IMG/VR virus record: IMGVR_UViG_3300013137_000105
Span: 1 to 22,687 of that record
Reading direction: 5' to 3' (one strand)
Length of the DNA: 22,687 nt
Source: a virus
Numbering within the stretch: the stretch's first letter is position 1; each line of letters opens with the position of its first letter. Shown one piece after another: positions 1,497 to 11,505 of the stretch. Below the pieces are notes generated by a model, which was not told where the DNA came from, searched no databases, and saw only the letters and a list, made by a program, of their open reading frames with translations. Made by a program: the position numbers and the translations under genes.

Positions 1497-3119
1497 ATGA
1501 TTGAGATACCCACACCATCATCAAGCCGCCTCGTCGAGATGCGCCTCGCGCACCTGGTCGAGCTGGGCCGGGAGCGCTTCGCGCTGAAGCTCGGCTGTGA
1601 TGCCACGGTAGAATACTCAAAATACGAACGCGATCCGGTTGGGTTTGGCAAGGACGTGCTCGGTGATACCTATACCGATGATGTCATGGCAATGATGCGC
1701 TCTATCGTTGGCCATGAAGTAACGATAGCGCAGTCAAGCAATGCGACCGGGAAAACCCATGCTGCCGCCAGGGTGGCAATATGGTGGTATAAAACATTCC
1801 CCGGTGCTCAGGTTTATACTGCTGCAGCTCCGCCGGAGGGCAATTTAAAGCGCCTGCTGTGGGGTGAAATTGGTTCTGTAGTAGCCTCCCACAAAAAGCT
1901 TTTCGAGGCTGACACCGTGACAAATCTCAATATTCAGCGAGCGGATCAGGAATTTGTTACTGGCGTATCAATCCCCATGTCCGGCACAAGCGAGGTCCGG
2001 GAGGCTAAATTCTCCGGCAAGCATGCCCCGCACCTGCTTTTCATCCTCGACGAGGGCGACGCGATCCCTGATGAAGTTTACAACGGCATAGAATCCTGCA
2101 TGTCTGGCGGCCACTGTCGTCTCCTGGTGATGTTCAACCCGAGGCGCAAGCAGGGCGCAGCATACCGCAAGATAAGGGACAGGCAGGCCAATGTCGTTAA
2201 ATTGTCCGCTTTCAGCCATCCGAACGTTGTCACCGGGGAAGACAAAATTCCAGGCGCTGTTACCCGCGATAAAACCGTAAAACGAATAAATATGTGGTGC
2301 CGGCCCGCGGCAAAGGGCGAGGACTCCGACGCGCAAATATTTAGTCTGCCAAAATTCCTGGAGGGCTGCAGTTGTGGCGATTACCCGACGCCGCTTCGGC
2401 CCGGGAAGTACCGCGTTTTACAGCCCATGTTTTCCTATATGACGCTCGGCGAATACCCTGCCCAGGGTAGCTCTGCGCTCATAAGCGAGGAGTGGATAGC
2501 CGCCGCCAGGGCGCGGTATGACGCTTATGTTGCAAAGAACGGCGAGGTTCCGCCCGTTGGTGTTCGCCCGGAGATGGGACTCGATGTCGCGGAATATGGC
2601 GAGGATGAAAACGTCTGCTCCCTGCGCTATGGTGGATTTGTGCCGCCTCTGCAATCGTGGAACGGGGTAGATACTGTTGTTACATCTGATAAGGCCGTTG
2701 CGATTTTCAAGCAGAAGAAGTGCTTGATCGCAAAGGTTGACGCCCTGGGTGTTGGCTCGGGCGTGGCGCCGCTCATGGTTCGGTCCGGCTGCCGCGCCAT
2801 ACCTGTAAAGGTTTCCGAAAAGGCCACTGAAAAATGCACTGTCGGCCCCGGGGAAGTAAAGGAGTTTGGAATTTTGAGGGATCAGCTATGGTGGCGCTGC
2901 CGGGAATGGCTGCGGAAGGACCAAGGTTCAATGCTGCCTCCAGATGAAACACTAATCGAGGAACTACTGTGCCCGACCTATGAAGAGGACCAGCGCGGCC
3001 GGATAAAAATACTGGATAAGGACAGCATGAAGGAGTTGCTGAAAAGATCGCCTGACCGTGCTGAAGCCCTAATTTTAACATTTTCCCCGTCCGGGAGAGG
3101 CAGTTATGATTTTTCGTAA
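1497..3119 (+). CDS. terL: Terminase large subunit (packaging ATPase and nuclease)
   Basis: The 540-residue protein is the motor that pumps DNA into the procapsid and cuts concatemers. A Walker A-like loop, SSNATGKTH, lies near residues 80-88, and Walker B LLFILDEGD near 181-189 with the catalytic Glu after Asp. MFNPRRKQG near 213-221 is in the place of the coupling motif. The C-terminal RNase H-like nuclease shows GLDVAEYGEDEN (first Asp near 364), IAKVDALGVGSG (second Asp near 415) and SPDRAEALI (last Asp near 520). All three acidic positions are kept, so it should be active. The length is normal for the family. ATG 1497 has no good ribosome site; ATG at codon 15 is a possible alternative. 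The gene end overlaps the start of a 32-residue membrane peptide. Confidence 0.95.
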   Translation: MIEIPTPSSSRLVEMRLAHLVELGRERFALKLGCDATVEYSKYERDPVGFGKDVLGDTYTDDVMAMMRSIVGHEVTIAQSSNATGKTHAAARVAIWWYKTFPGAQVYTAAAPPEGNLKRLLWGEIGSVVASHKKLFEADTVTNLNIQRADQEFVTGVSIPMSGTSEVREAKFSGKHAPHLLFILDEGDAIPDEVYNGIESCMSGGHCRLLVMFNPRRKQGAAYRKIRDRQANVVKLSAFSHPNVVTGEDKIPGAVTRDKTVKRINMWCRPAAKGEDSDAQIFSLPKFLEGCSCGDYPTPLRPGKYRVLQPMFSYMTLGEYPAQGSSALISEEWIAAARARYDAYVAKNGEVPPVGVRPEMGLDVAEYGEDENVCSLRYGGFVPPLQSWNGVDTVVTSDKAVAIFKQKKCLIAKVDALGVGSGVAPLMVRSGCRAIPVKVSEKATEKCTVGPGEVKEFGILRDQLWWRCREWLRKDQGSMLPPDETLIEELLCPTYEEDQRGRIKILDKDSMKELLKRSPDRAEALILTFSPSGRGSYDFS

Positions 3120-3537: not shown

Positions 3538-3807
3538 ATGAAAGCAAGAGCACTTATTTTCCTGTTTCTTCTGGCCCTGGCGGCCCCGGCATTGGCCGGC
3601 GATTACATTATCATCGACAAGGGCACTGGCAGGACCGTCGATCCGGTTGATCTGGAATACGACATGCGCCGTGAATTGCAGCATGAGCTGCAGGTGCAAA
3701 GCGACATCGACCAGACATGGCGGCATTATTACGAAAGCAAAAAAAAGTCCGAACAGGACTACAAGAAGTTTAAGTGTGACCTTTACGGCGGGGACTACTG
3801 TAAATGA
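3538..3807 (+). CDS. Small exported protein with Sec signal peptide
   Basis: The 89-residue product starts at ATG 3538, 5 nt after AAGGAGG at 3526-3532. The first 20 residues form a textbook Sec signal (MKAR, hydrophobic core, then PALA before GDY), so cleavage should leave about 69 residues in the periplasm. The mature part is short and charged, with a helical middle (DMRRELQHELQVQSDIDQTWRHYY) and two Cys near the end that could pair. I recognise no family. Its stop overlaps the ATG of the next gene (ATGA). Export argues against a virion component assembled in the cytoplasm and for an envelope role such as lysis accessory or superinfection exclusion; that is inference. A spanin outer subunit was considered, but no lipobox is present. 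Confidence 0.75.
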   Translation: MKARALIFLFLLALAAPALAGDYIIIDKGTGRTVDPVDLEYDMRRELQHELQVQSDIDQTWRHYYESKKKSEQDYKKFKCDLYGGDYCK

Positions 3808-4364
3808 GTATTTCTATTTTCGGAATTGGCTGGCCTGGGGAGCGCCCGGGCTTTGCCTGTCTGCTTGAGCTGACCGGGTGGACGATACAGCTCCATAAAG
3901 AGACCGAGGCCGACACGCTCGACGGTCTGGTGTGTGACATTGCAAGATTTATCAAGGATCACCGTGAGACATACCCTGTGGCCGGGATCGTCGGGCGCAA
4001 GGTTCAGGGCGAGCTTAATTTCCTGAAAGAGTTTAACAAGGACAAACTTAATCCGTTTCTTTTTTTCTCAGAGGCCCCGAACGTCGAAACAACGGGACGG
4101 CTGACCTACCATTTCAATGCCTGCCTGAATGTGCTGCGAGACGAAAACAAGCGGCTGTTTTTGAGAAACGATAGTAAGGTCCTGGAATATCTCGAAAGCC
4201 TATCTTCGCCCGGGGCTCAAGATGCGACCGACATACAATATCCGGCAGTGGCAGCGCTGGCCTATGGCGTGACGTATCTGCTGCAGCGGGCTGGCAATCC
4301 CGAGAGGCGACGGCGGGGCAGGGGTTACAGAGACGGGGGGAGGGCAACGGCATGGACGGCATGA
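3804..4364 (+). CDS. Hypothetical protein with a possible degenerate RNase H-like (TerL nuclease-like) layout
   Basis: The 186-residue product is coupled to the gene before it by an ATGA overlap. I do not recognise a named family. The layout resembles the nuclease domain of TerL: a strand-turn-strand opening (SIFGIGWPGERPGFACLLEL), a second strand followed by helix (VAGIVGRKVQGELNFLKEF), an Arg-Leu helix (GRLTYHFNACLNVLRDENKR), and an end YPAVAALAYGVTYL. The last resembles the closing helix of terminases. At the three places where TerL has catalytic Asp I see Gly, Gly and a non-acidic residue, so an active nuclease is unlikely. The tail is Arg/Gly-rich and overlaps the next gene by 13 nt. The fold suggestion is inference from pattern by eye; coding status is good. 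Confidence 0.7.
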   Translation: MSISIFGIGWPGERPGFACLLELTGWTIQLHKETEADTLDGLVCDIARFIKDHRETYPVAGIVGRKVQGELNFLKEFNKDKLNPFLFFSEAPNVETTGRLTYHFNACLNVLRDENKRLFLRNDSKVLEYLESLSSPGAQDATDIQYPAVAALAYGVTYLLQRAGNPERRRRGRGYRDGGRATAWTA

Positions 4365-4552
4365 AGAATAAAGACCTCGAATTATTCCTCCGAAGCGTGC
4401 AGGCTGACTGCGCCGAGGCTATCCGGCGCCACCGGCCAGCCAATACGTTTTCGTGCGAGGTTATTACCCGGATTGTTGTCGGCTCGGGAGGGGTGCGAGA
4501 CGTGGATACCTATTTGGATAAGTTAAGATTTCATAAAATAAAAAACAGTTGA
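4352..4552 (+). CDS. Hypothetical small protein, 66 residues
   Basis: ATG 4352 has GGAGGG at 4339-4344, 7 nt upstream; ATG 4361 is a second possible start. It overlaps the previous gene by 13 nt. The product has a helical N-terminal half (KDLELFLRSVQADCAEAIRRH) and a beta-like second half (SCEVITRIVVGSGG). There is no signal or membrane span. The last codons (HKIKNS) are encoded by the first copy of the 21-bp tandem repeat, so the gene end and the repeat array share sequence. No family is recognised. Confidence 0.65.
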   Translation: MDGMKNKDLELFLRSVQADCAEAIRRHRPANTFSCEVITRIVVGSGGVRDVDTYLDKLRFHKIKNS

Positions 4553-4596
4553 CAAAAAATAAAAAACAGTTGACATAAAATAAAAAACAATTGACA
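4534..4596 (+). repeat. Three 21-bp tandem repeats, each ending in TTGACA
   Basis: Three adjacent units, 4534-4554, 4555-4575 and 4576-4596, differ at only two positions. Each has an A-rich tract (AAAATAAAAAA), then ACAGTTGACA (ACAATTGACA in the third). The 21-bp period is close to two helical turns, so the A-tracts and TTGACA boxes lie on one face of the DNA, as in iterons or multi-site operators. Although TTGACA equals a sigma-70 -35 box, no good -10 lies 16-18 bp after any copy. The first unit overlaps the end of the preceding gene. Likely roles are a regulator-binding array, a replication iteron set or bent DNA; the choice is open. Confidence 0.9.
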
Positions 4597-4607
4597 AACT
4601 GTCAATT
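4589..4607 (+). promoter_or_regulatory. Perfect inverted repeat, operator-like (AATTGACA-AAC-TGTCAATT)
   Basis: Arms of 8 bp at 4589-4596 and 4600-4607 are exact reverse complements around a 3-nt centre. The left arm is the end of the third tandem repeat, so the palindrome adds an inverted TGACA box to the direct ones. Such a symmetric site suits a dimeric DNA-binding protein. No U-tract follows it, so it is not a terminator. Confidence 0.65.
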
Positions 4608-4616
4608 ATGTTCTAA

Positions 4617-4640
4617 GTGACAATTATACAGCATTGTCGC
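4617..4640 (+). promoter_or_regulatory. Second TGACA/TGTC inverted repeat
   Basis: GTGACAAT (4617-4624) and ATTGTCGC (4633-4640) pair at 7 of 8 positions around the 8-bp centre TATACAGC. It repeats the TGACA theme of the upstream array. The centre TATACA could be a weak -10 element, which would place the operator over a promoter, but no good -35 lies 17 bp upstream. A further TTGACA follows at 4642-4647. Confidence 0.45.
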
Positions 4641-4696
4641 TTTGACAAGAAAAAACCCGGGAGTCAGAAATGAAAAGCTAACCATTAAGAATCAAT

Positions 4697-4724
4697 AGCA
4701 GCCAGCATCACAAGGCCGCTTTTT
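4697..4724 (+). terminator. Weak terminator-like hairpin
   Basis: AGCAGCC (4697-4703) pairs with GGCCGCT (4714-4720) at 6 of 7 positions around a 10-nt loop and runs into TTTTT at 4720-4724. It is short and carries one mismatch, so termination may be partial. It is the first of three tandem hairpins in this gap. Confidence 0.35.
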
Positions 4725-4730
4725 GTCTTT

Positions 4731-4766
4731 CTGCCCGCCCTTCCGTGCCCCGGATGGTTCGGGCAG
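4731..4766 (+). other. Structured hairpin in intergenic RNA
   Basis: CTGCCCG (4731-4737) pairs perfectly with CGGGCAG (4760-4766). Inside it TCCG (4742-4745) pairs with CGGA (4751-4754) around TGCCC. No T-run follows, so it is not an intrinsic terminator. It lies just before the strong terminator, and the three hairpins in a row suggest a structured leader or a short noncoding RNA ending at about 4820. Confidence 0.45.
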
Positions 4767-4774
4767 CAAACCGC

Positions 4775-4820
4775 AAAAGGCCCCATATCGGATAAATCCG
4801 ACGTGGGGCCTTTTGTTTTT
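4775..4820 (+). terminator. Strong intrinsic terminator
   Basis: An 11-bp perfect stem pairs AAAAGGCCCCA (4775-4785) with TGGGGCCTTTT (4804-4814). An inner TCGGA/TCCGA stem (4788-4792 / 4797-4801) caps it, and GTTTTT follows. The A-run on the left side could also serve the minus strand. The ribosome site of the next gene starts directly after the T-run, leaving no room for a promoter, so that gene must depend on read-through or antitermination. Confidence 0.85.
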
Positions 4821-4832
4821 CTGGAGCAAAAT

Positions 4833-5300
4833 ATGAAAAAGCTTTTCATCCTTCTTTTCCTTGCAGCCTTAGCGGTTCTTTTCCTCATTCATCAGGCGGA
4901 GGCCAGCTCAAACGGTGCGACGGCTTACGGGGTGTGCGCATATGTCGATAACTCGACGATAGACTGCTCCGCTTCCGAGGCGGACAATATTATCGCCTAT
5001 GTTTATGTCACGTTCGACAATGCCACCAGTGTTGACGTCACCTACAAAATTATCCCGTCATGCGAGACTGCAGCCGCAACAATAGCCGACACTAACCCGG
5101 TCACAAGCCCGATTGAATACATTGCCTATACGCGCAGGATAACAGCAACGGTGCCAAGCCTGGCGGTCGAGCTCCCGATTGACAAGTACCGCGGAAAGCC
5201 AGAATCCCTGTGTTCTCCACCCAAGACCCGACTTTCTTTTACCCGCAACGCAACGGGCGGACGTGCTTCAATAAAAGTCCGTGGCGCCATAAAGAGGTAG
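4833..5300 (+). CDS. Exported hypothetical protein with Sec signal peptide
   Basis: ATG 4833 follows CTGGAG at 4821-4826. An in-frame GTG at 4803 lies inside the terminator stem and is rejected. The 155-residue product begins with a Sec signal (MKKLFILLFLAALAVLFLIHQ, then AEA before SSNG; cleavage near residue 24). The mature part is about 130 residues, rich in Thr, Ser and Ala with alternating beta pattern (IIAYVYVTFDNATSVDVTYKII). It has four Cys that could form disulfides in the periplasm, and a basic end. The beta character resembles small fibre or Ig-like proteins, but no named family is recognised. It is one of four export-signal proteins in the window and sits immediately downstream of a terminator. 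Confidence 0.75.
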   Translation: MKKLFILLFLAALAVLFLIHQAEASSNGATAYGVCAYVDNSTIDCSASEADNIIAYVYVTFDNATSVDVTYKIIPSCETAAATIADTNPVTSPIEYIAYTRRITATVPSLAVELPIDKYRGKPESLCSPPKTRLSFTRNATGGRASIKVRGAIKR

Positions 5301-5307
5301 CCAGAGC

Positions 5308-5790
5308 ATGGCTTCATTCAACCCCATTTACCGCGTTCTTTCCCGGCGCTTACGCTTCGACACAGACGGACGCCCGCAGATGGTTATAGAGCGCTCATTT
5401 AAGAGCCCGGACGACAAGCGGGCTGTTGTTATTCCCGAGTGCGACGCCTGCCTCATCGAGGACGTGCGGCGCAAGGGCGAGGATAATGACGGCATGATGA
5501 ACTTCCGGCGCAATGTCATGGCCGCGAACATGCTTGTCTATTTCGGCTTGCTGCCTGGGCGGGCCGTTCAGTGCAAGACCAACGGGACTATGGTTGGTGA
5601 CTTCATCCATAAGCAGCGTATCTGCAATACAACCATGTTTCTTATGGATGGCGTGGCGGACCTGTTTGCTCAGCGCGTCCAGATAAACGAACAGGGCAAA
5701 TGCCTCGGCGGCGTGGTTTTCCATGCCCCGGACGGAACAACCCATAGCAGCGACATTTACGAGGAAAGCTGCAAAATAGGTGACATTTAA
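5308..5790 (+). CDS. Hypothetical protein, 160 residues, upstream of portal
   Basis: ATG 5308 has AAAGAGG at 5291-5297. The stop TAA shares its last base with the portal ATG (TAATG), so the portal is probably translated by reinitiation. The product is soluble and Cys-rich (seven Cys, including CDAC near residue 46 and CKTNG). There is no signal peptide. Parts such as RLRFDTDGRPQMVIERSF and GKCLGGVVFHAPDGTTHSS suggest beta hairpins. No C-X2-C pair is repeated in a way that defines a zinc fold. No family is recognised. The fixed link to the portal suggests a head-assembly or regulatory role, without proof. Confidence 0.7.
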   Translation: MASFNPIYRVLSRRLRFDTDGRPQMVIERSFKSPDDKRAVVIPECDACLIEDVRRKGEDNDGMMNFRRNVMAANMLVYFGLLPGRAVQCKTNGTMVGDFIHKQRICNTTMFLMDGVADLFAQRVQINEQGKCLGGVVFHAPDGTTHSSDIYEESCKIGDI

Positions 5791-7958
5791 TGCCTGACAT
5801 CGAACAGGTTGACATTATCGTTGTCGAAGAGGTTGTGGACCCGCTTCTTGAGCGCGAAAAACAGGAGCGCTTCGAGAAGATGAAGGGCTCCTTCGAGGAG
5901 GAGCGCGAGCTACAGGCCGACAACAGGTATATCATGGACCTGTGCGAACGCTTCTACGACAACGACCAATACGACGACGAGGAAATAGACGCGGCAGACG
6001 ACCAGGGCGCGGCCCTGTCAATGGTCAATATCTGCAGGCAGCCTGTCAATTGGCTGACCGGAGCCGAGCGTAAAACCCGCCTCCAGGACGATATACTCCC
6101 CCGGTCCGAGGACGATGTGCCGAATATTCCCGCCAAAAAGAAGGTGATGAAGTATTTGGACGACACGAACCATTCTCAGTTTTTGTGCTCCGAGGCTTTT
6201 AAGCAGGGCGCGAAAGCCGGGTTGTCCTGGATCGGCCTGCGCTATGACGAGGACGGGGAAGGTGAGGAGCCGATAAAAGAGGAACAATATAGCTGGCGGC
6301 ACTGCTGGCATGACTCAAAGGCTCAGAAGATAGGGCTTACCGATGCCCGGCATTTCTTTATCCGAAAGCGCGTCGATGTTGACATAGCCATTGGCAGATT
6401 CCCCGAGCATAAGCATTTGCTGACGGGGATCGCTGAGAATTACGACCTGACAAACGATTTTGAGGAAGAGTTTACCGGCAAGACCTACCGGGACTATGAC
6501 GGCGACGGAATTGTAATTTCATCGAGGAAGCTGACCGGCAGTTATCTGGGCTTCCGGGGCTCCTATACCCGCCAGTTTGTTGATCTGGTCGAGTGCTGGT
6601 ACAAAATCCCCAGCCCTCCGGGGACAAAAATACTCAAACCCTCTCCGAATGCGCAGTGGCCTGGCTGTTATCCCAACCCCACGGGAGAGTTTTTTGATCC
6701 ACGAAACCCGCTGCATGTATGGGCGATCCAAAACGGCTTTTGCTATCCGGTCAACACTACCCGCATGCAGGTGCGCTGCATGGTCTGGTGCGGCGATAGC
6801 CTGCTCGGCGACTGGCCGAGCCCGTACCGGCATAACAGAATCCCCTTTGTTCCCATATGGGCATACCGGGACTATGAGGGTAATTTTTACGGAGTTATCC
6901 GCGGCATTCTCTACGGGCAAAAAGATTTTAATAAGCGCCTGCAGCGCATTTTATGGCTCCTGAGCGAGCGGCAATTCATGTATCAGAAGGGCGCAATCGA
7001 CGACCCGGAAGAGTTTGCCCGGGAGCGCGCCAAGGTGGATGGCCGAATGGAATGCAACGACATAAACGGTGTGAAGATTAACACCAATGAATCCCTGCAG
7101 GAAGCATCGCAACAGATACAGGTGCTGCAGTTTATCTATAATGCCGTAACGCAGGATATGGTGCGCGACGAGCAGGCCGGGCTCGCGACAAACGCAGATT
7201 CAGGCGTGGCGATCCGGGAGCGCAAAAGCGCCGCGGCCCTCAACACCTGGGAGATTTTCGACAATTACACGTATTCCAGGCAGCTAATCGGCGAGCTGAA
7301 GTTGTCAATGATACAGCAGTTCATGCCCGGGCCTCGCTCGCTGCGCATTGTCGGTAATAAGCGGGCCGTATCATTTGAGGCAATCAACTCTTTCGACCAA
7401 AACGGCAACCCCCTGAATGACATCGTATCGCGGCAGGCTGATTATATCGTGACCATGCGGGATTACTCTGAAACCTACCGCATGGAGATGGTCGAATACC
7501 TCGGGAAAATACTGGAGCGCCTCAATCCGCAAGTGGCTTTTGCCATGCTTGACGTGTATGTCGATATGTTTGATCTGGATCAGGAAATAAAAGACGTGCT
7601 GGTGAAGCGCATACGCAAGCTTAACGGCCAGAAGGCCCCAGAGCAAGAAGGCCAGCCGCCGACGCCAGAAGAACAGCAGGCAATGCAGGAAGCGCAGGTA
7701 GATAAGCAGCTCGTAAGGGGCATGCAGGCTGCGCAGACCGACGACCTGAAGGCGTCCGCAGAAAAGAAGCGGGCCGAAATTCAGATTGCGGCCCGAAAGC
7801 TTCAGGATGCCGAAAAGATTGACGCACGGGAAATGGCGGTACGAGAGGCGACCGCTCTAGCAAACATACAACACGGCGAGGCAAAGATTAAATCAATGCC
7901 GAATCCTTCGCTGCCCAGGGCATACCGGGAGCGCGGGCTTTTACTCAATAATCAATAA
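5790..7958 (+). CDS. Portal protein (P22 gp1-like)
   Basis: The 722-residue length is close to the P22 portal (725). This protein forms the dodecameric ring at one capsid vertex, through which DNA enters and leaves. The order of features fits: an acidic N-terminus (EEVVDPLLEREKQERFEKM), a wing/stem region with MVNICRQPVNWLTGAERKTR, a core with the typical RIPFVPIWAYRDYEGNFYGVIRGILYGQKDFNKR, and DEQAGLATNADSGVAIRERK near residue 460. A long helical C-terminal part, rich in Gln, Lys and Ala (about 610-700), corresponds to the barrel of P22-type portals. It begins at ATG 5790, overlapping the previous stop by one base, with AGG at 5778-5780. Family assignment is firm; tail type is inferred from it and the neighbours. 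Confidence 0.92.
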   Translation: MPDIEQVDIIVVEEVVDPLLEREKQERFEKMKGSFEEERELQADNRYIMDLCERFYDNDQYDDEEIDAADDQGAALSMVNICRQPVNWLTGAERKTRLQDDILPRSEDDVPNIPAKKKVMKYLDDTNHSQFLCSEAFKQGAKAGLSWIGLRYDEDGEGEEPIKEEQYSWRHCWHDSKAQKIGLTDARHFFIRKRVDVDIAIGRFPEHKHLLTGIAENYDLTNDFEEEFTGKTYRDYDGDGIVISSRKLTGSYLGFRGSYTRQFVDLVECWYKIPSPPGTKILKPSPNAQWPGCYPNPTGEFFDPRNPLHVWAIQNGFCYPVNTTRMQVRCMVWCGDSLLGDWPSPYRHNRIPFVPIWAYRDYEGNFYGVIRGILYGQKDFNKRLQRILWLLSERQFMYQKGAIDDPEEFARERAKVDGRMECNDINGVKINTNESLQEASQQIQVLQFIYNAVTQDMVRDEQAGLATNADSGVAIRERKSAAALNTWEIFDNYTYSRQLIGELKLSMIQQFMPGPRSLRIVGNKRAVSFEAINSFDQNGNPLNDIVSRQADYIVTMRDYSETYRMEMVEYLGKILERLNPQVAFAMLDVYVDMFDLDQEIKDVLVKRIRKLNGQKAPEQEGQPPTPEEQQAMQEAQVDKQLVRGMQAAQTDDLKASAEKKRAEIQIAARKLQDAEKIDAREMAVREATALANIQHGEAKIKSMPNPSLPRAYRERGLLLNNQ

Positions 7959-8441: not shown

Positions 8442-9461
8442 ATGGCGGACGAAGAACTTACCCAGACTGAGCTTGACCGGCTGTCACCCGAAGAACTCGC
8501 GGGCCTCAAAGATGAGGACGACGGCGAGGAGCTGATAAACGCCACCGGGACCAAGGAAGTTGACGACGATGACATAGACGACGATGGCGTCATATCTGAG
8601 GATATTTCCGACCAGGAAGCTGCGGCGGCTGAAGCAGCTGCGGCAGGCGAGGCCGGTAAAGATGGCGAGCCCGCCGCAGATCCCGAAAAACCTGCGGAAG
8701 AGAAGCCGGGAGAAGCGGCAGAAGAGTCCGCCGCAGGAGAAGCGGCACAGGAAACACAAAGCCAGCAGCCCGCCGCAGGATCGGACGACAGGCCCTTCCC
8801 TGATCTTGAGGACGACACAGAGGATTTTTCCCCGCCTCCGGCTATTGAGTTTCGGGAGTATGTGCCAAAAATCGACGTCAAGGCCGCAGAGGCCGAGCTT
8901 GTTGAGCTGCAAAAGCAGTATGACGAGGGCGACATTGACGAGAGGCAGCTCCACGACAAGCGCGTTCCGATAGAGCGCTCACTGAATGCCGAGTATGCAA
9001 ATTATTCCAGCATCGTTGACCACAACAAGTGGGTTAGCGAAACACTGGAGCGCGGCTGGCGAACGGCGCAGATGAAGTTTTTTAACCAGCCGGAAAACCG
9101 CTCCTGGCTGAAAAACGACATCAAATTCGCGGCAATGTCAGCGGCGCAAAAAGAGCTGCTTCCGAAATTTCGCGGGAAGTCGCATGCCGAACTGCTCCGG
9201 GCCTCAAAAGCTCTGGCGGAAAAAGAGCTTGGCATTGCCCCGGCTCCGCCAAAGCCGAAGGATGAAAAGAAAATTCCACCGGCTCCGCCAAAGCCGCAGA
9301 TGCACAAAACCATTACCGACCTGCCCGGCGCGTCGCCCGATGTTGGCAGCGGTAAATATGCGGCCCTGGATGCAGCCATGAAGAGGGGAGACGCAGAAGA
9401 AATAAACAGATTGGCCTCCAAGCTTTCGCCGAAGGAAATGGACGAATGGACATCGAGGTAG
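8442..9461 (+). CDS. Probable scaffolding protein
   Basis: The 339-residue product sits between portal and major capsid, where P22-type phages encode the scaffold that guides coat assembly and then leaves. Residues 1-125 are extremely acidic and low in complexity (DDDDIDDDG, then Ala/Glu/Pro-rich). Residues about 145-265 look helical (VKAAEAELVELQKQYDEGD, ELLRASKALAEKEL). A duplicated proline linker APPKP follows, then a helical end with charged residues (KYAALDAAMKRGDAEEINR), the usual place for coat binding. No protease motif is seen. The leader has two GGAG sites at 8431-8434 and 8437-8440, which promise strong translation. The call rests on composition and position, not on a sequence motif. 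Confidence 0.75.
   Translation: MADEELTQTELDRLSPEELAGLKDEDDGEELINATGTKEVDDDDIDDDGVISEDISDQEAAAAEAAAAGEAGKDGEPAADPEKPAEEKPGEAAEESAAGEAAQETQSQQPAAGSDDRPFPDLEDDTEDFSPPPAIEFREYVPKIDVKAAEAELVELQKQYDEGDIDERQLHDKRVPIERSLNAEYANYSSIVDHNKWVSETLERGWRTAQMKFFNQPENRSWLKNDIKFAAMSAAQKELLPKFRGKSHAELLRASKALAEKELGIAPAPPKPKDEKKIPPAPPKPQMHKTITDLPGASPDVGSGKYAALDAAMKRGDAEEINRLASKLSPKEMDEWTSR
9240..9296 (+). repeat. Perfect 18-bp direct repeat inside the scaffold gene
   Basis: CCGGCTCCGCCAAAGCCG occurs at 9240-9257 and again at 9279-9296, 39 bp (13 codons) apart. It encodes the doubled linker PAPPKP. The exact identity at DNA level points to a recent in-frame duplication that lengthened the linker. Confidence 0.85.
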
Positions 9462-9464
9462 CCA

Positions 9465-9707
9465 ATGCTGAATTTAGACGTCCGGGTTGGCGATCTGGTG
9501 ATGGTTGGAGATGCGGCGATATACGTTGATCATATTTACGCCGTGCGCTCCGGCATTGAGCGCGTGCCGCAATGTGCCCCGAAAAATTGTCTGGCCCTGA
9601 GAATCGAGGCCGGAATAGATACAAAAATTAAATTGATAAAAGCAAGAGATATTAAAAATCAAGGTGACCGGAAGGACGAGTGGGCCGGCGCAACACATAA
9701 GGAGTAA
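9465..9707 (+). CDS. Small CsrA-like protein upstream of the capsid gene
   Basis: The 80-residue product starts at ATG 9465 with GAGG at 9455-9458. Its beginning, MLNLDVRVGDLVMVGDAAIYV, follows the pattern of CsrA (ML-x-L-x-R-x-G-E-x-x-x-IGD-x-I-x-V). After an insert of about 20 residues it continues LALRIEAGIDTKIKLIKARDI, which resembles the CsrA second half ending in R-E-I; R61 would match the RNA-contacting Arg. CsrA is a dimeric RNA-binding protein that masks GGA motifs at ribosome sites. CsrA homologues are known in phages. The insert and long basic tail are unusual. If the call holds, the adjacent capsid ribosome site (AAGGAG) is a natural target. An alternative is a small beta-barrel head protein with a chance match. 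Confidence 0.5.
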   Translation: MLNLDVRVGDLVMVGDAAIYVDHIYAVRSGIERVPQCAPKNCLALRIEAGIDTKIKLIKARDIKNQGDRKDEWAGATHKE

Positions 9708-9710
9708 CTT

Positions 9711-10826
9711 ATGGGCAACACTATTATCCCCCGAGGGAGCGCCCTTTCTGTTCGCAAGCAAGGCGTAGCCCTCACCGTAGCACAGCCCCGGCGCACCTAT
9801 TTCCAGAAATTCATGGGCACCGGAGAGGACACAGAAATGCCCGTGATGGAGCTGCTTGGTCTTGAAAGCGACCAGGGCGACGTCATGGACTACCAGCTCG
9901 TCGGAGCGCCCAGCGCGCCCCCGACCGAGGGCGACGCGCCGCAGGCAGGCCGCGAGGAGCCCATCATCGAAAATTCCTGCGAAATCCATATCGACCTGCT
10001 GACCCACGGAAACGATTGCGGCCGGAAAATGACCCGCAAGCGCTCCAAGCACGACCTGCGCAAGATCGTGAAGGGTAGCGAAGGCCCGTACTGGGGCCGC
10101 GTTCTGGATGAGCTGCTGTTCATGTACACCAGCGGCAATCGCGGCGACAATGACAAGTTCCTGTTCGCCCGCGGGTACACCGGCTTTGCGGGGAACACCA
10201 TCACCGCGCCCGACACGAACCACCTGCGTAAGATCAAATCGACGTATGCGGGCTTCGGCGCTGGCGACGTTCTGACGCTGAGCGAGCTCAATTCCGTGAA
10301 AACCATCATCGAAATGCTCGGCGTGGACGTCAACGGCGTGCCCGAGATGCTTCCGACCAACGTCAACGGCGAGGATGTGTACATCTATGTTATGAGCAAG
10401 TACAGCGAGAACGACCTGAAAGACGCCTCCAGCGGCAACACCTGGATGGATATTCAGAAGGCGATGCTGAGCGCTCTTGGCAAGGATGCCGACATTTGCA
10501 AGGGCGCAATGGGCATGGTTAACGGCCTGCTCCTGCACTCGCACCAGAAGGTCATCCGGTTTGCAGTCGGGACCGACCCGGCAGGCGGCTCTGACGTGCT
10601 GTCCGTGACGGCATGCCGCAACCTTGTCCTCGGCAAACAGGCCGCAACCGTGGCCTGGGGCATGAAGGGCAACAAGGGCGTACGCTACGGCTGGTATGAG
10701 TTCTACGACGACCACGGTCGCAAGCTCGTGATCGACACCGATACCTGCTGCGGCGTTCAGAAGAACACCTACGGCGGGTATGACTACGGCGTGTGCTGCC
10801 ACGACGTAACCGCAGAAGCGCCCTGA
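9711..10826 (+). CDS. Major capsid protein (DUF4043 / N4 gp56-like family)
   Basis: The 371-residue product is the main shell protein. ATG 9711 follows AAGGAG at 9699-9704. Residues near 25-110 contain the family pattern QRRTYFQKFMG-like (PRRTYFQKFMGTGED) and the segment with NSCEIHIDLLTHG. The central part has GNTWMDIQKAMLSALGKDA. The C-terminal part has CRNLVLGKQAATVAWGMKG and WYEFYDDHGRKLVIDTDTCCGVQKNTY, which fits capsid proteins of this group (HK97-like fold). The third codon positions are mostly G or C, unlike the tail genes, as expected for the most abundant product. A scaffold lies upstream and a probable decoration protein downstream. The family name is from pattern recall; the capsid role is firm. 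Confidence 0.9.
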   Translation: MGNTIIPRGSALSVRKQGVALTVAQPRRTYFQKFMGTGEDTEMPVMELLGLESDQGDVMDYQLVGAPSAPPTEGDAPQAGREEPIIENSCEIHIDLLTHGNDCGRKMTRKRSKHDLRKIVKGSEGPYWGRVLDELLFMYTSGNRGDNDKFLFARGYTGFAGNTITAPDTNHLRKIKSTYAGFGAGDVLTLSELNSVKTIIEMLGVDVNGVPEMLPTNVNGEDVYIYVMSKYSENDLKDASSGNTWMDIQKAMLSALGKDADICKGAMGMVNGLLLHSHQKVIRFAVGTDPAGGSDVLSVTACRNLVLGKQAATVAWGMKGNKGVRYGWYEFYDDHGRKLVIDTDTCCGVQKNTYGGYDYGVCCHDVTAEAP

Positions 10827-11451: not shown

Positions 11452-11488
11452 AGCTGGCCGGGGCTTCCCGGCTCCGGTCAGCTTTTTT
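11452..11488 (+). terminator. Strong intrinsic terminator after the decoration gene
   Basis: AGCTGGCCGG (11452-11461) pairs with CCGGTCAGCT (11474-11483), with one G-T pair, and runs into six T (11483-11488). The next start codon is only 18 nt further, so downstream genes must be read through. It ends the most highly expressed part of the operon. Confidence 0.85.
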
Positions 11489-11505
11489 AATGAAAGGAAG
11501 AGAGC

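Follow-up and report, generated by a model that had tools for sequence, protein, structure and literature searches.

In plasmid origins of the Rep_3 type, direct repeats spaced at about two helical turns are found in A+T-rich surroundings, along with an inverted repeat that contains the iteron half-site. The late leader of phage lambda (pR'-tR'), which is controlled by Q, runs for about 190 nt to a terminator placed right before the late genes, the lambda 6S RNA being 194 nt long. Read-through by Q occurs at lambda pR' (PMC6266700). The targets of Ros/MucR proteins in alphaproteobacteria are A+T-rich and hold repeated AAATA cores, the published core site being AAATA with a T-A step, and the N-terminal region of these proteins serves oligomerisation (PMC9779718).

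The repeat array analysed here (positions 4534-4647 of the window, by which we mean the whole 22,687-base stretch of DNA, which makes up one virus record) resembles each of these systems in part. It shares with Rep_3-type origins the repeat spacing, the A+T-rich surroundings and the inverted repeat with its half-site, but lies within a structural operon, in a window without an initiator gene or DnaA box. As at lambda pR'-tR', a leader of about 190 nt and a terminator directly precede late genes, whereas no plus-strand promoter was recognised, no Q-like protein was identified and the direct repeats are of another sequence. As in Ros/MucR targets, the DNA is A+T-rich with repeated AAATA cores and a Ros/MucR-type gene is close by; unlike the described targets, it has TGACA boxes and palindromes, and the phage protein lacks a detected oligomerisation region.

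Genomic setting and structure of the array

The record is probably a fragment of a phage genome, and the host is probably to be sought among Desulfobacterota bacteria. All plausible genes lie on the plus strand, forming a packaging/virion operon of a podovirus-like phage. Upstream of the array are terS (200-820, PF03592), a Ros/MucR-type zinc-finger gene (826-1485; PF05443, E=1.9e-14, 54.2 bits against a cut-off of 25.4), terL (1497-3119), the gene for a 186-aa protein (3804-4364) of a family found after TerL in Desulfobacterota elements (1e-19 to this TerL-linked family in a six-protein search) and a 66-aa ORF (4352-4552) without family match; neither of the last two has a PHROG or Pfam match. 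Downstream follow genes for a 155-aa protein whose N terminus is signal-peptide-like (4833-5300), a 160-aa protein (5308-5790) weakly matching the family encoded ahead of the portal in Lessievirus-like phages (9e-6 in the six-protein search, 14.3 bits), the portal protein (5790-7958, phrog_156), a scaffold-like product (8442-9461) and the capsid (9711-10826, PF13252), with more genes, virion proteins among them, beyond. Predicted genes of the window are otherwise separated by 80 bp at most, the interval 4553-4832 being the sole larger gap. Judging from these matches, the array occupies the junction of a terminase module (TerL and the linked 186-aa gene) and a Lessievirus-like portal/capsid module, which agrees with the original prediction that it lies between small-gene clusters of a late operon.

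Between the scaffold and capsid genes, an 80-aa protein (9465-9707) is CsrA-like by position only, the positional basis being the annotation of JC1_47 as a carbon storage regulator. Its similarity to a CsrA-like family has an E value of 0.054, and Pfam favours a sub-threshold match to thymidylate synthase. With this E value and a poor fold model (pLDDT 48), the idea of a CsrA-controlled leader was dropped.

The array begins with three plus-strand direct repeats of 21 bp (4534-4554, 4555-4575 and 4576-4596), the first being TAAAATAAAAAACAGTTGACA and the third carrying a G to A change that gives CAATTGACA. They are 92-100% alike with a spacing of 21/21, and TRF reports a period of 21 at 4535-4598 (3.0 copies, 93% matches, no indels), so that the three tandem TTGACA units first described are borne out at 4534-4596. 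A perfect 8+8 palindrome, AATTGACA-AAC-TGTCAATT, follows at 4589-4607; its arms are as predicted, while the spacer is 3 nt long rather than the single nucleotide proposed. The second inverted repeat and the additional TTGACA box of the original prediction are also present, the former as an imperfect 10+10 structure, AAGTGACAAT-N8-ATTGTCGCTT, at 4615-4642 (9/10 pairs), the latter on the plus strand at 4642-4647. The 21-bp phasing claimed for the boxes holds for the three tandem copies, but the remaining half-sites are out of that phase.

The 19-mer AAATAAAAAACARTTGACA, allowing up to three mismatches, occurs three times in the window, always within the array (0.00 in shuffles). TTGACA is found 22 times on both strands of the whole window against 9.4 +/- 2.95 expected, five of these within 99 bp. 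Because tandem copies inflate such counts, the DNA from 4587 rightwards was tested separately with 2000 dinucleotide shuffles: it holds three TTGACA against 0.15 expected, and four TGACA/TGTCA in 4587-4660 against 0.40 expected, each figure being reached in 0/2000 shuffles. The perfect palindrome by itself is mildly unusual for such A+T-rich DNA (3.8% of shuffles). The clustering of repeated DNA sites in the array is real, and for the half-sites it greatly exceeds chance even when the tandem copies are set aside. No other 100 bp of the window is as rich in A+T (0.80, the next being 0.68), and the predicted curvature of the region falls in the top 0.03%, with approximate wedge parameters.

To the right of the last box, a non-coding leader on the plus strand (4648-4773) includes a 3-codon ORF behind GGGAG (ATG at 4670) and a hairpin at about 4731-4766. 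It leads into an intrinsic terminator on the same strand (4774-4820) with 20-nt arms that are 90% complementary, a loop of 2 and then TTTTGTTTTT, at about -32 kcal/mol. No other plus-strand terminator in the window is as strong as this one, and the gene at 4833, the first past it, begins 13 nt further. The plus-strand TTGACA boxes of the array have poor -10 partners and form no convincing sigma-70 promoter, and the promoter scan gave no promoter-like site between the terminator and gene 4833. On the minus strand, a sigma-70-like promoter (TTGACA-17-TATTTT, 10/12) is predicted at 4577-4605, its -35 element being one palindrome arm; it has the top minus-strand score in the window, although A+T-rich DNA yields such matches easily. 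A second strong intrinsic terminator lies at about 11452-11490, directly before gene 11506 of the virion region and without any array, so terminators may merely set expression levels here. An Rfam search returned nothing above any gathering score.

Relatives of the phage and similar arrays elsewhere

The nearest TerL proteins (50-63%) come from Desulfobacterota genomes and viral contigs, where the 186-aa-type gene follows TerL. For portal and capsid, the nearest proteins are of Lessievirus-like type, the portals of JC1, Skulduggery and Atu_ph08 standing at 30-35%, and are also found in prophage-like regions of the class to which the TerL relative L144 belongs; the four closest of these regions reach 30-34% for the portal and 35-38% for the capsid. 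Among 71 TerL and portal loci, only that of the window has a gap of at least 150 bp and a cluster of boxes at this place. In about 90 TerL relatives, the 2.5 kb following TerL never hold three boxes within 120 bp, and the array is absent from several Desulfobacterota prophages. DNA searches with the array region against phages and plasmids gave only chance or terminator-like matches of 34-40 nt, and a search of phages with the whole window gave nothing. Since none of the compared loci keeps all of the genes flanking the array, its absence there does not refute a function.

Some of these relatives have features of their own. Four small Desulfobacterota elements (L147, L150, L173 and L176) carry TerL with the 186-aa-type gene and no portal match, together with an integrase-like ORF (L147, L176) or a primase-like ORF (L150) near TerL; they look like phage satellites carrying their own terminase. 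An 891-aa TerL relative (L003, 501-3176) has its ATPase motif split by an intein-like stretch between NATGKS and THGAARV. In L175, a tandem repeat of 21 bp (TTGGTGAAAAAGGTAGTCACC), perfect over 2.1 copies, begins 124 bases after the end of the TerL match.

TTGACA recurs three times at 21 bp in at least 119 stretches of viral contigs, many of them repeats inside genes; some of the remaining arrays, among the matches listed, lie close to genes for GP88/DUF7227 or terminase. The longer pattern AACARTTGACA, twice at 21 bp, gave four matches in viral contigs, two of which proved on inspection to be different arrays, the other two being coding. Arrays of TGTCAA/TTGACA inverted pairs occupy long intergenic regions in six contigs (L087, L024, L106, L115, L049 and L076), in which they adjoin genes for GP88 or DUF7227 and others of terminase-like type. 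In L132 (5218-5328), at least six TTGACATATTAAATCCTTAAC units, probably a plasmid-type origin, have as neighbours the genes for a Rep_3 initiator and a ParA-like protein.

Bacterial genomes offer few comparisons. In the class of L144 (389 genomes) the triple TTGACA pattern occurs in 6/389 and the 8+8 palindrome in 2/389; the idea that triple TTGACA arrays mark a host regulon was rejected on these counts, several of the six triple occurrences being within simple repeats. One of these arrays, in a bacterial intergenic region of genome G561 (L358, G561:C18, about 6320-6530), has some 11 imperfect 21-bp units, TTGACAAnnnnnnAAAACAnn. Its units (TTGACAATTCATAAAAACAGTTTGACA) resemble those of the phage array; no phage genes are near, and this array gave no function.

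A proposed composite operator and its rivals

The array is most likely a protein-assembly site, as far as its sequence allows us to judge. Within that reading we tentatively favour, at a likelihood somewhat short of even, a composite operator for a protein recognising TGACA half-sites, placed at a transcription-unit boundary and followed by an attenuator-like leader. The boundary would separate the upstream terS-ros-terL-small genes from the downstream portal/capsid genes. A putative DNA-binding protein of phage or host, with a half-site near A-A-N-T-GACA-A, would occupy seven half-sites, three of them phased along curved A-tract DNA, the other four mixed in orientation and in part inverted, and the bound proteins would assemble into a multi-protein complex on the array. 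This complex may decide whether transcription passes into the virion genes, either by acting on a promoter within the array or as a loading site for an antitermination function, the latter route being suggested by a leader of about 190 nt that ends in a strong terminator 13 nt before a gene, with no convincing promoter after it. We infer that proteins bind the array, and that it may regulate transcription and control read-through. In favour of the operator are the half-site excess right of the tandem copies, the position in the sole large gap at a junction of modules, the A+T-richness and predicted curvature, and the strong terminator with no promoter-like site behind it. A parallel that supports the operator comes from G862, one of the two genomes with the 8+8 palindrome, where an intergenic region holds the TGACA-half-site palindrome and a third half-site, as in an operator. 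Counting against it, the TTGACA boxes belong to no convincing plus-strand sigma-70 promoter, the second strong terminator precedes a gene without any array, the array was matched in none of the compared phages, plasmids and TerL/portal loci, no regulator was recognised, and the tandem copies may have been duplicated recently.

An iteron-type replication origin (or an incompatibility/partition-like site) would account for the same repeats by different means. Here the initiator would be encoded outside the 22.7-kb fragment, its monomers binding the direct repeats, its dimer the inverted repeat, and the A+T-rich DNA being opened. The three direct repeats two helical turns apart are in phase and, at 21 bp, within the 17-22 bp of iterons, AATTGACA-AAC-TGTCAATT shares the iteron half-site, and the stretch is the A+T-richest of the window and curved by prediction. 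Among the matches listed for viral arrays with TTGACA every 21 bp, that of L132 adjoins an initiator gene of the Rep_3 type (PF01051+PF21205), while those of L054, L120 and L044 are inside replisome-organiser genes; such neighbours make the iteron reading a serious rival, though homology is not shown. On the other hand, TTGACA-N15-TTGACA-N15-TTGACA arrays are diverse, many of those listed being in coding repeats. The absence of a rep gene from view, noted originally, is confirmed among the scanned ORFs of the window (a fragment of a genome that may have one), no DnaA box (TTWTNCACA) occurs in the window, GC skew makes no lasting change at the array, and the surrounding operon is structural. 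We consider an origin somewhat unlikely. The original classification as operator or iteron set is sound with regard to direct and inverted half-sites beyond chance in A+T-rich, predicted curved DNA of the sole large intergenic gap, and both readings are compatible with this evidence.

The repeats could also be neutral, a tandem duplication having copied an A+T-rich segment where the 66-aa gene ends; they would then have little or no function, with the other boxes and palindromes partly due to chance. Copy 1 covers the last codons and the TGA stop of this ORF, and the period equals seven codons. Between the three copies, spacers and boxes are equally conserved; selection on TGACA does not follow from the copies alone, which could be recent. 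The frequency of the perfect palindrome in shuffles and the failure to find the array conserved in other phages fit this explanation as well. It leaves aside the half-site excess outside the duplicated units, which persists in the face of 2000 shuffles, and the retention of a non-coding gap within an otherwise compact phage stretch; we regard it as unlikely.

A partnership with the phage's own Ros/MucR-type protein, as originally suggested, would have that protein bind the A-tract spacers and silence or organise the DNA. The gene is real, and AAATA occurs once per unit, in phase (4536, 4557 and 4578), the array and its neighbourhood forming the densest AAATA cluster in the window (four within 70 bp). 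Such motifs are nevertheless expected in A+T-rich DNA, and the PF05443 match covers profile positions 50-116 of 123, that is the zinc-finger part, with the N-terminal oligomerisation region undetected. As AAATA is in the spacers and absent from the TGACA box, a Ros/MucR protein might bind the A-tracts, but the TGACA half-sites, including those to the right, would need another protein. The suggested partnership is weakly supported, and this explanation of the array is improbable.

It is highly improbable that the array is a packaging recognition site for the phage terminase, given that known packaging sites are usually in or beside the small-subunit gene, here 3.7 kb away, and that the array is absent from about 90 TerL relatives, even if it lies 1.4 kb downstream of terL and terminase genes are near some other TTGACA arrays among the matches listed (small terminase in L097 and L079, large-terminase-like ORFs in L049 and L087). 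A site-specific recombination site was rejected: the 10-8-10 geometry of the imperfect inverted repeat fits, but the window shows no integrase gene, and the arms of the repeat are presumably unlike dif. No long inverted repeat frames the array region as in a miniature transposon, which was also discarded.

Possible significance for late-gene control

Returning to the composite operator, the array is at present one example for which conservation was not found, chiefly useful as a target for binding assays. It is rather doubtful, though conceivable from the sequence, that TGACA half-sites at the terminase/virion seam form a phage origin or antitermination-loading site in an undescribed group of Lessievirus-like Desulfobacterota phages, with a binding protein of unknown family. 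If the array is an origin, iterons would be placed away from their initiator gene. If it controls transcription into the virion genes, it would offer a first approach to how these little-known phages control their late genes.
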